Of a DNA stretch of 64,000 nt, positions 32,535 through 47,799 are shown one piece after another. A program made the position numbers and the translations under genes. How positions within the stretch are numbered: position 1 is the first letter of the stretch; every line of letters begins with the position of its first letter. Source of the stretch: Aliarcobacter sp. GTDB lineage: Bacteria > Campylobacterota > Campylobacteria > Campylobacterales > Arcobacteraceae. Under the pieces are notes generated by a model that was given only the letters and a program-made list of their open reading frames with translations, was not told where the DNA came from and did not search any database. The stretch spans positions 97,181 through 161,180 of the forward strand of contig JAQVBE010000004.1 of NCBI GenBank assembly GCA_028690445.1, written 5' to 3'.

Positions 32535-34391
32535 ATGAACTCTAACAAAAAGATAACTATTATAATTTTCACTATGGTTACAGTATTAACAATTGTAATA
32601 GTAGCTTTAGTGGCGCTTGGTTCTAGGCAAACAGGTTATGATAGTGCAAAAAAAAGAGCTTATTTAACGGCTGACATAGTCAAAAAATCTCTAACATCTC
32701 ATATGATTAATGGAAACATGCACCAAAGAGATGTTTTTTTAGATAGTATGACTCAACTAAAAGAAGTGAATGATTTATGGATTGTTAGATCAAAAACAAT
32801 AAGCGCGCAATTTGGTAAGTCCGGATTAGGAAATGAAATCCCTAGAGATACTATTGATGAAGAAGTTTTAAGAACAGGTATTGAAAGAGTCATAACAACT
32901 GAATCTCTAAAAAATGCTTCACTAAGAATCACTATTCCATACACGGCTTCTTCTCTTGATAAACCAAATTGTTTATCTTGTCATAATGCAAAAGAAGGGG
33001 AAGTATTAGGTGCTATTTCTTTAAAATTTGATATTCAAGAAGATAGAATTTCGAGTATTGCTATTTTATTAAATGTTATTGGAATCATTTCTCTTTTCCT
33101 AATTTTTATATTAATTTATATTAGTAAAAAAATCAAACCCTATACTAGTTCATTTGATGCCATTACAGAAGTTTTAAAACAAGTTCACGATGGTGATTAT
33201 TCTGTACGTGCAAAAGAAGGTGTTTTAAAAGAAGATAAAGAAGCTTCTTTATGGTTAAATGAAATTATAGAAAAACTTGAAACTGTATTAACAGGAATTG
33301 AAAAAAATCTAACTGCATTTGTTCACAATAGAGTGTCAAATGTAAATAATGATAAATTATTAACGGCAAAAGAGATAATAGAAGATATTTCAGAAATTTA
33401 TAACTATAAAAAAACAATTGAAACTGACTTAACAAAAGAAGATATTTATTATAGATTAGTGCAAGTGTTAAAAGATAAATTATTAATCAAATCTTTTTAT
33501 ATTTTTGAAAATGATTTAGTAAAAGATGAAAGAACAATAATCTTTTCTACAAAAAATATCAAACCTTGTTGTGGGCTTCTAAAGAATGTAAAAGAACAAT
33601 GTAGAGCTGAAAGAACTGATACTATTGTTATATCTGAGAATTTTCCTGAAATTTGTAGAGTTGCAACTTGTAAAAATGATACTGATTATATCTGTATTCC
33701 ATTCTTAATAAATGACCAAAAAAGTATAACTATTCATATTTTATGTGAAGATAAAGAGTGTTTAAAACACTCTAAGTATCAAATTGGAATAATCAAAAAA
33801 TATCTTGAAGAAACTAAACCTATTTTAGAAAGTAGGATGTTAATGGATGTTTTAAGAGAAAGAAATCTAGTTGATGGGTTAACAGGCCTTTATAATAGAA
33901 AATATCTAGATGAATTTATTGATAAAAAAATGCCCCATGAATTATCTAAAGGAATGACTTATGCTATTATGTTCTTAGATATTGACTACTTTAAAATGAT
34001 AAATGATACTTATGGACATGATGCAGGAGATGCAATACTTCAAAAACTTTCATCAACGATGAAAGGTGCAATTACTGAAAATGAATTTATAATTAGATTT
34101 GGAGGAGAAGAGTTCTTAATTATAATGAAAAACCCAACTCCTGAAAGTGCAGATGAACTAGCAAATAGAATTAATCAAGAGTTTGCAAAACTTGTATTTA
34201 CATTTAATAATAATTCATTTAGTAAAACAGTAAGTATTGGTTATGCATTTTTTCCAAGTGATACTGACCAAATATGGAAATGTATTAAATTTGCAGATCT
34301 ATGTCTTTATAAAGCAAAAGAGACAGGAAGAAATAAAGTTATAAGATTTACAAAAGAGCTTTTAAAGGGTAGTGATAAAGATAATTATTAA
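32535..34391 (+). CDS. Membrane diguanylate cyclase with haem-type periplasmic domain
   Basis: A 618-aa protein predicted to make cyclic di-GMP. A membrane segment (about 8-28) is followed by a periplasmic Tll0287-like (DUF3365) domain with the c-type haem motif CLSCH at residues 146-150, a second membrane segment (about 178-198), a HAMP-like stretch, a cysteine-rich GAF-like region (CCGLL, CRAE, CRVATCKND), and a GGDEF domain with GGEEF at 523-527. The RxxD inhibitory site normally five residues before GGEEF is absent, so product inhibition by that route is not expected. The ATG at 32535 has AAAGG seven bases upstream, which decides against a start 21 bases earlier. Haem ligation suggests sensing of redox state or a gas. 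Confidence 0.85.
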   Translation: MNSNKKITIIIFTMVTVLTIVIVALVALGSRQTGYDSAKKRAYLTADIVKKSLTSHMINGNMHQRDVFLDSMTQLKEVNDLWIVRSKTISAQFGKSGLGNEIPRDTIDEEVLRTGIERVITTESLKNASLRITIPYTASSLDKPNCLSCHNAKEGEVLGAISLKFDIQEDRISSIAILLNVIGIISLFLIFILIYISKKIKPYTSSFDAITEVLKQVHDGDYSVRAKEGVLKEDKEASLWLNEIIEKLETVLTGIEKNLTAFVHNRVSNVNNDKLLTAKEIIEDISEIYNYKKTIETDLTKEDIYYRLVQVLKDKLLIKSFYIFENDLVKDERTIIFSTKNIKPCCGLLKNVKEQCRAERTDTIVISENFPEICRVATCKNDTDYICIPFLINDQKSITIHILCEDKECLKHSKYQIGIIKKYLEETKPILESRMLMDVLRERNLVDGLTGLYNRKYLDEFIDKKMPHELSKGMTYAIMFLDIDYFKMINDTYGHDAGDAILQKLSSTMKGAITENEFIIRFGGEEFLIIMKNPTPESADELANRINQEFAKLVFTFNNNSFSKTVSIGYAFFPSDTDQIWKCIKFADLCLYKAKETGRNKVIRFTKELLKGSDKDNY

Positions 34392-34428
34392 AAAAAATCT
34401 GCATATATTTTTTATGCAGATTTTTTTT
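34390..34428. terminator. Bidirectional terminator between the cyclase and mutS7
   Basis: An 8-bp core stem (TCTGCATA / TATGCAGA) is extended by A and T runs of eight on either side, with a 7-base loop. It serves both convergent genes. Its position just past the HNH reading frame (stop at 34435) suggests the mutS7 transcript includes the HNH segment. Confidence 0.85.
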
Positions 34429-34434
34429 AAAACT

Positions 34435-34665
34435 CTACTTCTCAACCATCGTATAATGCAATTCTAAACCTTTTGAAGTTGTTACAAATCCATTTATATT
34501 TATCGTTCCATCATGCACCATTTTATGATGTTCTTTACAAAGTGGAATCAGATTATATTTATGATTTGCATTTATATGTCCTATAAATCCATCTTTATTA
34601 GCCCGTGCTTGTTCTTTTATATGATGAACATCATCACAAGCTCGTCCACAAATTAGACAGATGCA
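34435..34665 (-). pseudogene. HNH endonuclease domain of mutS7, in the -1 frame
   Basis: Directly behind the stop of the MutS gene, the -1 frame stays open for 76 codons and encodes a clear HNH nuclease: a zinc pair CLICGRAC, the first His pair in DVHHIKEQA, the Asn in YNLIPLC, and KEHHKMVH, ending in YTMVEK. No start codon with a ribosome site precedes it. In the T run at 34665-34669 the gene has five T; one more T would join the frames as ...NVFCICLICG..., giving a 983-aa protein, the expected size for a MutS7. This is either a true frameshift, a sequencing homopolymer error, or slippage that makes both forms. Codon use and motif conservation argue the domain was recently or is still functional. 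Confidence 0.85.
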
Positions 34666-37385
34666 AAAACATTATTATTATACTTTGAAGTTTTTCGTTG
34701 AGTCAATCTTTCAACTGAACTATAATCATCAGTTAATTTTTTTCTTATTTCATTTGCCACAGATAAAAACTCTTTGTCCATATGAAGAGATTTTGCATAC
34801 TCTAAACCATACATAGATGAACCACTTCCATAGGCTAATTTTCTATCAAAAATAAGTTTGTCTTCGTCATCTTTGTACATAACTGATAAATGAAGTGCAA
34901 TTATATTTTTTAGTTTTTGTATTTCTTCAATTTCTGGAAGTTGATGCAAATGTGTAGCAAAAACAAAAATAGCTTCAAGTTTTGCTAATTTTAAAATAGC
35001 ACTTGCAACTATACTTAATCCACTCATTGTTTCTGTACTATGAGAAATTTCATCACCTAAAATAAGTGAGTTTTTACTAGCCCTATTAAAAATATTTTTT
35101 AATTCTAACATCTCAACAGCAAAAGATGATAATCCTTTTGCAATATTATCAGCTCCTGAAATTCTAGTGTAAACAGCATCAAAAATAGAAAATCTCATAG
35201 ACTTACAAGGTACATAAAATCCTGCTTGTGCCATAATAACTAAAATTCCAATAGCTTTCATAAGAGAAGATTTACCAGAAGAGTTTATTCCATAAAGTAA
35301 AACTCCATGCATTTTATTGTCATAAATATTTATAGGATTTAAATTTTTTATAATCACATTATCTTTATACTCTTTTGAAGCGAGTGATAATTCTCCCAAA
35401 ATAATATCATTTGGTACATAAATTCCTTGCTCTTCATTTGCTTCAATAATTGGATGTCTTAAATCAATTAACTCTAAAAAGTTTTCATTATCTTTTGTTT
35501 TTACTATTTTTGGACAAGTATAATTATATTTTTTTGCTGTTTTAATATTTGAAACTGTTAAGTCAACCTCTGCTATAAATTGCACTAATTCTTCAAGTAA
35601 AATTGCAAATTTTTTCTCAAACTCAAGGATTTTTTCTTTAAATACAAGTTTATTTAACTCAATTATTTTTCGTAAGTTATGAACATATTTATCTGAAATA
35701 TCTTCTGTTAATTTACAAAATATTTTCACAGAGTTTGTTTGAATTCGAACTGTAAAATCTTTGAAAAGATATAATTCATCATCAACAATCAAGTGAGAAT
35801 TCATCAATTCTTCTTTTATAGAATTAAATCTATTTTTTGTTAAAGTGATAAAAAATCCCTCTTTATCAAGTCTGTTTATTCCCACAAAATTTGAATCATC
35901 AGATTTTATGTAAGATAAAATGTGCCTTTGCAAAATTTCTAATTTTGAATATAAAATCTCATTTTGAACATTTAATTCATCAATTTGAGTATTTATTCCC
36001 TCACTTATCATATTTACTTCAACATCTTTTAGCATATATTTTCCACTAATACTTAAATCAAAAGTTGAATCAATAGATTGAATAAAAAGGGTTAAATCAG
36101 CACTTGAACAAGGTGGCGTTATAAACTTATAATTCTCCATGAAAGTCACAACTTCTTTGATACTCAAAAGTGAATCATACAGATAATTTAACTCAAAGGG
36201 ATGAAGACGATTAAGTTTTATTCTTCGTGTTAATCTTTCAATATCATAAATATTTGCCAACTCATTTTCTATTGGTGTATGATAATCATACAACTCTTTT
36301 GAAAGTGCAAGTCTTCGTAAAATCTCTTTACTATCTTTAACTGGATGAGTAAGTCGCTCTTTTAAAAGTCTTTTTCCCATTGCTGTTGAAGTATTGTTTA
36401 TTAGTTTTATTAAACTTGGATTGTGTGTTGTTTCTATTACATTTAATTGTTCAAGAGCATTGTTTCCAAGATATATGTATCTGCTAACATCGAGTTTTAC
36501 TGGATGCGAGAGTTTTTGAACAATATTTGAATCGTGTCCTATTACAAAATCAATTAAAACTGCAAGTGATTCAGTACTTAATGGAACTCTTTCCATATCA
36601 AGATGTTCTATTGAAGTTAATAAAGATTGAATATTGAACACATTTTTAAACAGTTCATTTTGATAAGAGATTTTTGGTCTAAAATGCCCTATATGAAATG
36701 TTTTTAAAGAGAGTTCTAAATAATCAATAACCTCTTTTTGATTTATATTTTTATCTGCAAAACTTACAATTATCTCATTGGTTTTGTGCATATTCATATA
36801 ATTAAAAACTTCATCCAGTGCAAAAAATTTATCTTCACTTGTTCCATGAACTTCGTTGTAATAACACTTTCCAGTTGTTACATCAATGGCACTATAACCA
36901 ACTAAATAAATTCCTCTTATTTGGTCAATTAAAAGCGAAGTTATATTATTTTCATCTTGGTCAAGTACAAAATCAAAGTTTGTTCCAGGACTTACAACTG
37001 TATCCAAATATCTTGTAACATTTGGTGGGATTCCCTTTTGTTTGATTAAAACAACTGTGTATTTTTGCTCACTAATAATTCGGGAAAGATGTTTTTCAAG
37101 TGAAATTGCTGGAACTCCAGCCATTATTGGATTTTCTTTTGAGTTTTCTAAAATAGCTTTATTTTTTCTTGTTAGTTGTATATTTAGTAATTCTGCTATC
37201 TCTTTTGCTTTTCCTATTTTTTCTTCATCATTATTTACTTCATAAACTTCAAAAAAAGTTCCTATTTCCATAAGAACTACTGTGTTTATTCCATATTTCT
37301 TTTCAAATAACTTTTGAAGTTTAAAATAAGTAATTGTTAATAAATCTTTTTTATTGGCTAAAAGTTCTGCTACTTGCTCTCTCAC
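34653..37385 (-). CDS. MutS7-type DNA mismatch repair protein, HNH domain out of frame
   Basis: A 910-aa MutS homologue. It has the mismatch-recognition domain near the N-terminus (MEIGTFFEVYEVN, the counterpart of the FxE region), connector and lever domains, and an ATPase with Walker A GINSSGKSS (about residue 700) and Walker B LILGDEISHSTETM. MutS7 proteins are known from Campylobacterota, octocoral mitochondria and giant viruses, and carry a C-terminal HNH nuclease, allowing recognition and nicking in one polypeptide. Here the frame stops after residue 910, just before the HNH part, which continues in the -1 frame. It is the last gene of a run with a haem-binding protein and a thioredoxin-like protein. 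Confidence 0.88.
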   Translation of the reverse strand: MREQVAELLANKKDLLTITYFKLQKLFEKKYGINTVVLMEIGTFFEVYEVNNDEEKIGKAKEIAELLNIQLTRKNKAILENSKENPIMAGVPAISLEKHLSRIISEQKYTVVLIKQKGIPPNVTRYLDTVVSPGTNFDFVLDQDENNITSLLIDQIRGIYLVGYSAIDVTTGKCYYNEVHGTSEDKFFALDEVFNYMNMHKTNEIIVSFADKNINQKEVIDYLELSLKTFHIGHFRPKISYQNELFKNVFNIQSLLTSIEHLDMERVPLSTESLAVLIDFVIGHDSNIVQKLSHPVKLDVSRYIYLGNNALEQLNVIETTHNPSLIKLINNTSTAMGKRLLKERLTHPVKDSKEILRRLALSKELYDYHTPIENELANIYDIERLTRRIKLNRLHPFELNYLYDSLLSIKEVVTFMENYKFITPPCSSADLTLFIQSIDSTFDLSISGKYMLKDVEVNMISEGINTQIDELNVQNEILYSKLEILQRHILSYIKSDDSNFVGINRLDKEGFFITLTKNRFNSIKEELMNSHLIVDDELYLFKDFTVRIQTNSVKIFCKLTEDISDKYVHNLRKIIELNKLVFKEKILEFEKKFAILLEELVQFIAEVDLTVSNIKTAKKYNYTCPKIVKTKDNENFLELIDLRHPIIEANEEQGIYVPNDIILGELSLASKEYKDNVIIKNLNPINIYDNKMHGVLLYGINSSGKSSLMKAIGILVIMAQAGFYVPCKSMRFSIFDAVYTRISGADNIAKGLSSFAVEMLELKNIFNRASKNSLILGDEISHSTETMSGLSIVASAILKLAKLEAIFVFATHLHQLPEIEEIQKLKNIIALHLSVMYKDDEDKLIFDRKLAYGSGSSMYGLEYAKSLHMDKEFLSVANEIRKKLTDDYSSVERLTQRKTSKYNNNVFASV

Positions 37386-37804
37386 TTAGGTCTAACTCCC
37401 GTCCAATCCCTAATCATACTTCTTTGCTCTTTTGTTAAATTTGCATCTTCATGAATATATAAATAACTAGGAAGTGGCATAGAAGCATATGCTGTTCTAT
37501 AAATAGCTTTGATTTTTTCATCTTTCTTTTCAGGTGAATAATTCTCCCAAACTGAAAAATTCAAAGCTTTTTTCCCTTCTGTTATATGAGTTGAAATAAC
37601 CCAAGAAAAAGGCGATACATTAAAATACCAAGGATATTTAACTTCATTTGAATGACAATCATAACAAGAAGTTTTTAATATATTCATTACTTCAAGGGGT
37701 GCTTTTATTTCGAGGGTTTTATCAACAGCAATATTTTCTTTATTTGGTCGAATAAACTGCATAACAATAAATACTATTAACAATATTAATAAATTTCTTT
37801 TCAT
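37382..37804 (-). CDS. Haem-binding domain protein (Haem_bd type), exported
   Basis: A 140-aa protein with an N-terminal membrane/signal segment (about 3-18) and one c-type haem motif CYDCH followed by SNEVKYPWYFNVSPFSWV, characteristic of the small Haem_bd family. It is expected in the periplasm, membrane-anchored. It overlaps the mutS7 start by 4 bases and follows the thioredoxin-like gene by 3 bases. It could be an electron carrier or a redox sensor; its partner is not evident. Confidence 0.8.
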   Translation of the reverse strand: MKRNLLILLIVFIVMQFIRPNKENIAVDKTLEIKAPLEVMNILKTSCYDCHSNEVKYPWYFNVSPFSWVISTHITEGKKALNFSVWENYSPEKKDEKIKAIYRTAYASMPLPSYLYIHEDANLTKEQRSMIRDWTGVRPK

Positions 37805-44897: not shown

Positions 44898-46714
44898 TAA
44901 TTAACATCCTTGAAAGTATCCTTTATTTGTAGAAAATCATCTAAATTATTCATAAAAATATCTATCAGATTTGGATCAAAGTGTTTTCCTTTTTCATCAT
45001 TAAATAAATTTAAAACTTCTTCCAACGGCCAAGCTTTTTTATAGACTCTATCACTACTTAAAGCATCAAATACATCAGCAATTGAAGTGATTCTTCCAAA
45101 AATATGAATATCTTCTCCTTTTAATCCAAGAGGATAACCTGAACCATCCCATCTTTCATGGTGTGTATATGAAATAATGCCTGCGGCTTGTAAGATTTCT
45201 CTTTTAGAAGTTCTCAAAATTTCATATCCAATTGTTGCATGAGTTTTCATAACTTCCCATTCAGCGGAATCCAACTTTCCATTTTTATTTAAAATAGAAT
45301 CAGGAATTCCAACTTTTCCAATATCATGCATAGGTGAAGCCATAAATAATTTATTTATATCTTTTGGACTAAGTCCAATTTTAATCGCAAGTAATTTTGA
45401 ATATTCAGCAACTCTTTTTACATGCTGTCCAGTTTCTGAACTTCTACATTCACCAATTTCACCTAGTTTATAAATTATTTCTCTTTGTGCATCTTCAAGT
45501 TCATCATGCAATCTTTCAATATCAGTTATATCATGGCGAATTCCCATATATTCTATTACTTTACCCTCATTGTCTTTTAAAGGATACATTGTTACATTAC
45601 AGTGGAAAACTTGACCATTTTTTTTGAAATTTGAAATTTTTCCTTTCCAAATATTTCCACTAAAAATAGAATCTAATTTTTGAACTTGTTCTTCTTCTGT
45701 TAAATTATAGTGCTTTAAGTAAGAGTATGGTTTATTTATTAAATCTTCTTTTGAGTAACCGCTAATTTTATAAAATGCATCATTAGCATAAACAATATTT
45801 CTATTTAAATCCATTCTCAAAATAATATTACTTTCGTTTATTGCTTCTTTATATGCATTTACAATTCTAATAGATTCAGTTAAGTTAAAAGCACTTTTTT
45901 GTGTTTGGGTTTTAAAATATTCTTTGGTAGTCTCTAAATCTGTAATATCATTTGATAAAGAAATAAACTCTAAAATATTTCCATCTAAGTCCAATATAGG
46001 CTTAATAATAATATCTACAAAATATTCTTTACCTGTTTTAGAAATATTTTTTAATCTTCCATGCCAAGATTTTTTTCTAATATTGGTTGTTTTCCATATA
46101 TTTTTAAATATATATTTATCTATTAAAGGAACAGTTACAATATGATAAGTTTTTCCAATAAGTTCTTCTTTTGTATAACCTGAAATTCTTTCAAAAGGTT
46201 CATTTACATAAGTTATTATTCCATTAATATCTATTTTAGAAATGATAGATCTTTCATCAACAATATCTTTGTACTGTTTTAAAGAGTTATAAATCTCTTT
46301 ATTTTCTTTTTCCAAATTTATATTTTTTGCAATATTGGCTAAAACTTCACTAAGAGCAAAAAGATTTAAAGGTTTTGTTAAATAATTTGTTACATTTAAT
46401 TTTATTGCTTCAAATAAATAATCTGCATCATTAAAAGCTGTAATTATGACTATAGGAATAGTTTTATTTTTTTCTTTTATCAATTTAATCATTTTTGTAC
46501 CTGTCATCACTGGCATTTGAATATCTGTTATGATTAAATCAGGTTGATATTTCTCAAAAAAATCTAACCCTTCTTGTCCATTTTTTCCAACATAAAGTTC
46601 TTTTACTTTATTTTTTAAAAAATATTCTAACTCTTCTCTTGTATTATCATCATCTTCCACATATAAAAGTGATAATTTTTTTAAATAACGAAAAAAATCT
46701 TTATTATCACTCAT
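44897..46714 (-). CDS. Response regulator with two PAS domains and an HD-GYP phosphodiesterase
   Basis: A 605-aa cytoplasmic protein. A receiver domain (about 12-125) has LIITDIQMPVMTG with the phospho-acceptor Asp and YLTKPLN. Two PAS domains follow (about 155-270 and 290-400; YVNEPFERISGYTKEELIGK, YANDAFYKISGYSKEDLIN). The HD-GYP domain (about 415-595) has HDIGKVGIPD and HHERWDGSGYP, all metal and GYP residues present. It should break down cyclic di-GMP under phosphorylation control. It overlaps the degenerate kinase gene upstream by 4 bases. Confidence 0.92.
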   Translation of the reverse strand: MSDNKDFFRYLKKLSLLYVEDDDNTREELEYFLKNKVKELYVGKNGQEGLDFFEKYQPDLIITDIQMPVMTGTKMIKLIKEKNKTIPIVIITAFNDADYLFEAIKLNVTNYLTKPLNLFALSEVLANIAKNINLEKENKEIYNSLKQYKDIVDERSIISKIDINGIITYVNEPFERISGYTKEELIGKTYHIVTVPLIDKYIFKNIWKTTNIRKKSWHGRLKNISKTGKEYFVDIIIKPILDLDGNILEFISLSNDITDLETTKEYFKTQTQKSAFNLTESIRIVNAYKEAINESNIILRMDLNRNIVYANDAFYKISGYSKEDLINKPYSYLKHYNLTEEEQVQKLDSIFSGNIWKGKISNFKKNGQVFHCNVTMYPLKDNEGKVIEYMGIRHDITDIERLHDELEDAQREIIYKLGEIGECRSSETGQHVKRVAEYSKLLAIKIGLSPKDINKLFMASPMHDIGKVGIPDSILNKNGKLDSAEWEVMKTHATIGYEILRTSKREILQAAGIISYTHHERWDGSGYPLGLKGEDIHIFGRITSIADVFDALSSDRVYKKAWPLEEVLNLFNDEKGKHFDPNLIDIFMNNLDDFLQIKDTFKDVN

Positions 46715-47799
46715 TCATTATCCTTTAAAAGTGGTAAGGCAATAACAAATTTTGCCCCCTCACTGGCATTTTCAAATTCTAATCTTCCTTGCATATTTTC
46801 TTCTATAATAATTTTAGATAAAAACAGTCCTAAACCTGAAGATTTCTTATATTTTTTCGTAGTAAAATAAGGTTCAAATATATTTCCAAGAAGGGATGAA
46901 GGAACTCCACCTGCATTATCTACAATATTTATATAAGCAAAATCTTTATCTTTTTTAATACTAATAAATACTTTCTTTGAATCAATATTTTTTTCAACTA
47001 AAGCCTCTTTTGCATTTTGAAGAATACTAAATATTACTTGATTGATTTCATTTGGAAAACCATATAAATTAATTGATTTACTAAAGTTATAATCAATTTT
47101 TATATTGTGATTCATAAAAGTATCTTCTAACATTTCTAATGCTTCCATTACTATTTCATCTAAAAAGAACTCTTTTTTTACTTCATTAGGTTTAATAAAG
47201 TTTTTTAATTCTTCATTCTTTATTTGCATTTCACTTATAATTCTATTTAATTGCTCCATGCTTTTATCTATAAAATTATTATTGATATTTATTTTTTTAT
47301 ATTCATTATTTATGTTTTATAAAAGAAAATTTACACTATTTATTGTTTCTTCACAAGCTTGTACACTATTTATTGCAACTTTCCCTATTCCTGCTAATCT
47401 TGATTGATGAACTAATAAAATTTCTTTTTTTTCTTTACTTTGTATTTCTAATATCAGTTTACTTTCCAAAGATTCATTTAATTCTCTTTGTTCTTTTACT
47501 TTTTCTTGTAATGTTGTGTTTATTAACTCTAATTCAAAAGCTTTTTGATGATTACTTTTTTTCATATCTTCATTAAATTTCTCAAATTCTTTTTTTGTAT
47601 TATTTAAGTCAAAAGTTAAAGGTGTAATTATAGTTTTATAAATCAAAAAAGTGATAATACAAGAAGAAAGGAATAAAGTACCTGCTAAATAAAAAAACTC
47701 TTTTTCAAACAAGATTTGCGTTAATTGAGAATATGAGAATAAGCCAATAAGTAAAATTAAAAAATTTAGAATAAATACTCGCCTTACTATTTTAGACAT
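46711..47799 (-). pseudogene. Degenerate histidine kinase with in-frame TAA
   Basis: A 361-codon kinase reading frame split by one in-frame TAA at 47317-47319. Before it lie two membrane segments (about 8-28, 33-50), a coiled coil, and LLVHQSRLAGIG. After it lie FIKPNEVKKEFFLDE and an ATPase with SILQNAKEAL and SSGLGLFLSKIIIEENMQG. Aligned without gaps to the intact kinase downstream, the H-box AHQWRQPLN becomes VQACEETIN, so the phospho-acceptor His is Gln. The stop falls on a Gln of that kinase's VFQN (CAA to TAA is one change). The second part could restart at an ATG at 47259, but no ribosome site is evident there. Either a decaying gene, or an ATPase-only remnant still translated with the downstream regulator. 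Confidence 0.8.

Follow-up and report, generated by a model that had tools for sequence, protein, structure and literature searches.

A four-base deletion probably parts MutS7 from its HNH nuclease in an Aliarcobacter genome, at a codon occupied by a mobile island in a relative

Natural knock-outs of mutS and mutL occur in mutator strains as a young, small indel that inactivates part of a mismatch-repair gene which close relatives carry intact; for MutS7, a type of MutS that carries its own nuclease, we know of no mutator phenotype. In Campylobacterota, giant viruses and octocoral mitochondria, MutS7 genes encode MutS domains I, III and V followed by a C-terminal HNH stretch with a conserved H-H-N-H pattern (PMC3166940); we found no literature on an Arcobacter MutS with an HNH domain. 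Mismatch-repair genes can also be interrupted by mobile islands: SpyCIM1 lies in mutL of Streptococcus pyogenes, and it excises and restores the gene according to growth state (PMC4689407, PMC3430984). Elements carrying several tyrosine recombinases differ in what they leave behind on excision. GInts make 6-nt staggered cuts and excise as a circle, sometimes leaving an altered or slightly shortened empty site (altered attB sites, or deletions of 2 or 6 nt; PMC5385486), and for SE elements no empty site is formed (PMC10214605).

The locus described here lies in a 64,000-nucleotide stretch of DNA (the window) from a draft Aliarcobacter genome (G000; 2.42 Mb in 25 contigs, the window on contig C12), whose relatives belong to Aliarcobacter and Arcobacter. 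A reading frame of 910 codons on the minus strand (34653..37385), with a GTG start and a TAA stop at 34653-34655, encodes the Pfam domains MutS_I, MutS_III and MutS_V in a single frame and matches residues 1-911 of a 986-residue relative at 96% identity; these features identify the gene as a MutS7, as the original prediction had it. The remainder of the gene follows in the -1 frame (34435..34668, minus strand), where every motif residue of an HNH nuclease is found in order (CLICGRAC, DVHHIKEQA, YNLIPLC, KEHHKMVH) up to a TAG stop at 34435-34437; Pfam scores for this part fall slightly under the cut-offs for HNH_2 and DUF968. Next to this stop is a hairpin between convergent genes (34388..34430) that is probably their shared terminator. 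The description of a complete but out-of-frame HNH domain behind the 910-residue frame, with its stop adjoining a terminator, is thus accurate. Different from known MutS7 proteins (PMC3166940), the predicted product lacks the C-terminal HNH that unites them, as its coding sequence sits in the -1 frame, and from the 96% identity to intact alleles the gene is best described as a broken MutS7 allele. Separate translation of the HNH part was considered and rejected, as no ATG, GTG or TTG was seen in the -1 frame ahead of the CxxC motif, and no second intact MutS7 was found elsewhere in the genome.

The lesion was originally placed in a run of five T (34665..34669, minus strand), from which one T was supposed to have been lost. 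Comparison of the junction with 30 genomes of the same genus, and a gapped alignment against the nearest relative (G023, locus L027), place it elsewhere. The relative reads GCATCTTCATGTCTAATTTGTGG at the junction and the window reads GCATCTGTCTAATTTGTGG, four bases fewer. The missing bases are TCAT or, equivalently, TTCA, so that the site, between 34658 and 34659 (minus strand), is ambiguous by one base; it falls 3' of the T run on the coding strand, in the codon preceding the first HNH cysteine. The T run itself occupies valine and phenylalanine codons (GTT TTT GCA, V-F-A), and the same GTTTTTG occurs in L006, L007, L008, L010, L011 and L027, all in frame as V-F-A-S-[ST]-C; indeed, all readable relatives of the genus are in frame at this point (30 junctions). 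By this comparison the run is ancestral and is not the lesion. Adding one T does reopen a frame of 983 codons, as had been noted, but only as a matter of arithmetic, since it yields VFCICLIC where the relatives have VFASSCLIC; homology predicts that an intact allele would have five T and four extra bases, not six T.

The deletion is also recent, as the original prediction had proposed for the lesion, because the HNH stretch, starting at the second CxxC codon, matches the nearest relative's intact allele at every base (219/219 nt, or 73 codons) while the body of MutS7 differs from that allele by several per cent. As a separate observation, the mutS7 body together with a part upstream (34800-37700 of the window) is about 10% different from the same relative, and much of the surroundings is about 95-99% identical; it looks as if mutS7 has been replaced by recombination in one of the two genomes. 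An apparent split of MutS7 in the relative was not taken as biology, as it coincides with a scaffold gap of N.

How firmly the nuclease is retained can be seen from two surveys. In the family, MutS7 was found in 94 of 104 genomes, and, a few fragmentary matches aside, only the window's genome and one other (G035) have a MutS7 that reaches the junction and stops there. Relatives without any HNH-coding sequence, which the original prediction named as a result that would tell against it, are therefore not the rule: in nearly all of them the HNH is fused in frame. In an order-wide sample, for which low-scoring genomes were chosen by E-value and then read one by one, at least 229 of 398 genomes had a MutS7 match; among the matches listed, one genome (G162) is cleanly without HNH, one (G451) has a degenerate HNH, one (G051) has the HNH alone, and several have a MutS7 cut by contig ends. 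A MutS7 without HNH thus also occurs outside the window's genome, in G162 and G035, and judging from these alignments the domain is strongly retained but losable.

We consider it probable that a recent four-base deletion has put the HNH domain out of frame, making this a knock-out or hypomorphic allele instead of a switch of the programmed or phase-variable kind. Lying in the codon ahead of the domain's first zinc-finger cysteine, the deletion shifts the C-terminal nuclease out of frame and would leave the cell with only the 910-residue MutS7, that is, with mismatch-binding and ATPase domains and without nuclease. A search of the genome found no MutL, and the only other MutS is a protein of 767 residues, taken as MutS2 from its size. 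By analogy with the proposal made for octocoral mtMutS (PMC3166940), we infer that a MutS7 with its own nuclease would be the only candidate for the usual mismatch repair in this genome. Because the genome has no MutL and just one other MutS, repair dependent on MutS7 would probably be lost, or be reduced to mismatch binding only.

One relative shows how the same codon can be broken in another way. In the complete genome of G035, from the same family, an island of 17.4 kb interrupts mutS7 at the codon of the first HNH cysteine (L122 1-17900; G035:C1:638501-656400); its MutS7 ends in NVFAST-FKSDF and a stop, and its HNH is found about 17.4 kb downstream. The island encodes, in order, a 740-residue protein, a tyrosine recombinase of 632 residues, a coiled protein of 154 residues and a tyrosine recombinase of 466 residues, followed by HsdM, HsdS, KwaB and HsdR, a cargo of type I restriction-modification plus KwaB. 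It has in common with GInt, SE and Tn554 an operon at one end that encodes two catalytic tyrosine recombinases along with a small coiled protein and a large companion for which Pfam gives no match, with cargo beyond it, but gene order and sequence differ, so we call it GInt/SE/Tn554-like and do not place it in any one of these groups. Gamma-mobile-trio elements were also considered, for which we did not find a literature description of the genes. The lone HNH of G051 is preceded by the same element end as in G035 (L143 1420-1725; L190 1926-2201), and at the threshold applied no MutS7 body turned up in G051. Insertion at the MutS7 HNH codon is thus seen in two genomes, and relatives of the element occupy other cysteine codons: they interrupt hsdM at DPA-C in G054 (L192, L193), the gene of a small CxxC protein in G086 (L194), and glutathione-peroxidase-like genes at GF-PC in G277 (L197) and G294 (L199). 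These sites lie at or beside apparent cysteine codons, and the conserved residues point to a CTTGY-like core, suggesting that a cysteine-codon core is the target of the elements. The right end of the G035 island also carries a stand-alone frame of 90 codons (L122 17130-17399, minus strand) that shares about 46-49% identity with the HNH tail of MutS7, includes the SKYN linker and is oriented opposite to the MutS7 HNH.

The lesion coincides with a point at which mobile elements insert in relatives, which a chance deletion leaves unexplained and which counts against that reading. An alternative is that the four missing bases are the scar of a three-recombinase island of this type, which would formerly have occupied this codon and been imprecisely excised. 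In G035 the island parts MutS7 and HNH at this very codon, the HNH remnant of G051 adjoins the same element end, and the missing bases lie directly against the crossover point, a match expected in about 0.2% of cases by position alone (roughly 7 of 2950 placements), as judged after the fact; altered sites and short deletions are moreover known from GInt excision (PMC5385486). Against this, no recombinase of the island's kind was found in the window's genome, the core before the lesion would have been CATGT (as in the nearest relative), one base off the CTTGY of element targets, a scar of 4 nt has not been described, and SE elements would leave no empty site (PMC10214605). An ordinary deletion is favoured, and a scar seems possible but doubtful. 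More speculative is a broader hypothesis, to which we give little credence: that defence-carrying three-recombinase islands of Arcobacteraceae use the codon of the first HNH cysteine as an attachment site, that their entry and imprecise exit repeatedly part MutS7 from its nuclease, giving a control of mismatch repair like that of SpyCIM1, and that the window records one such exit. The growth-state dynamics belong to SpyCIM1; the G035 island is known from its sequence, and the window carries no island.

Two further explanations were weighed. If the assembly were wrong or a minor strain had been mixed in, the strain would have an intact junction, an idea that gains some weight from the draft state of the assembly, with its 25 contigs, and from an HNH otherwise perfect and the same as in an intact allele. 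The lesion is, on the other hand, outside homopolymers and interior to a contig of 167 kb, and when genes of the nearest relative and of a complete genome (G025) were placed on contigs C12 and C8 (about 122 genes, about 124 kb of coding sequence), mutS7 was the sole frameshift attributable to this genome, with one other gene showing a clear nonsense codon and two weak cases. Because mutS7 alone is shifted among these genes, the assembly is not frameshift-prone, and an error at the junction is unlikely. Far less credible is the original suggestion that slippage at the T run, whether ribosomal, transcriptional or replicative, yields MutS7 both with and without nuclease and so tunes the mutation rate. 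Slipping by -1 on TTT would allow re-pairing and yield the 983-residue protein with all HNH residues, and the 70 nt that follow form a somewhat more stable fold than shuffled sequences do (z -2.26). The folded stretch is, however, identical in the intact allele of the nearest relative, so it is coding sequence and not a frameshift signal, and no slippage signal has co-evolved with a deletion this recent. Inspection of the junction also bears out that an X XXY YYZ heptamer is lacking and that only a single-tRNA slip from TTT to TTT is available. A programmed frameshift would have a slippery site and a shift conserved in relatives, but the five T also occur in relatives whose frame is unbroken; phase variation would use a long, unstable repeat of varying length, but this run is short, has 12 further T runs of five or more beside it in the frame (13 in all, along with 26 A runs of five or more), and its length is not what sets the broken allele apart.

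As a mutation, the nuclease-less knock-out that we prefer is nothing unusual and adds to the natural knock-outs of DNA-repair genes; it differs from those of mutator strains in that the nuclease domain alone is removed. What makes it of interest is the gene itself, together with the fact that mobile islands of relatives use this codon. The allele would part mismatch binding by MutS7 from the nuclease in a bacterium without MutL, and strains with and without the lesion bear on the question, raised also for octocoral mtMutS, of whether MutS7 is a self-contained repair enzyme by virtue of its HNH. The G035 island, if it excises, would be a reversible version of the same separation.

Several other interruptions were seen in the course of these comparisons. 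A draft genome of Campylobacterales (G404, L135) has A7 in place of A6 roughly 15 codons upstream of the junction, a different site, and the indel was rejected as the same event. Another (G425, L138) is two bases short right before the first cysteine codon; a contig ends about 200 bases away, its codon context lacks a CTTGY core, and it was not counted as a second scar. MutS7 is split in mid-protein in G026 (L118) and G086 (L117), around residues 335-350 and 430; one of these two genomes consists of a single contig, and the splits hint at occasional loss of MutS7. In the window itself, a histidine-kinase-like gene (46711-47799, minus strand) has an in-frame TAA at codon 161 where a relative reads through, and is thus a second broken gene in this stretch.
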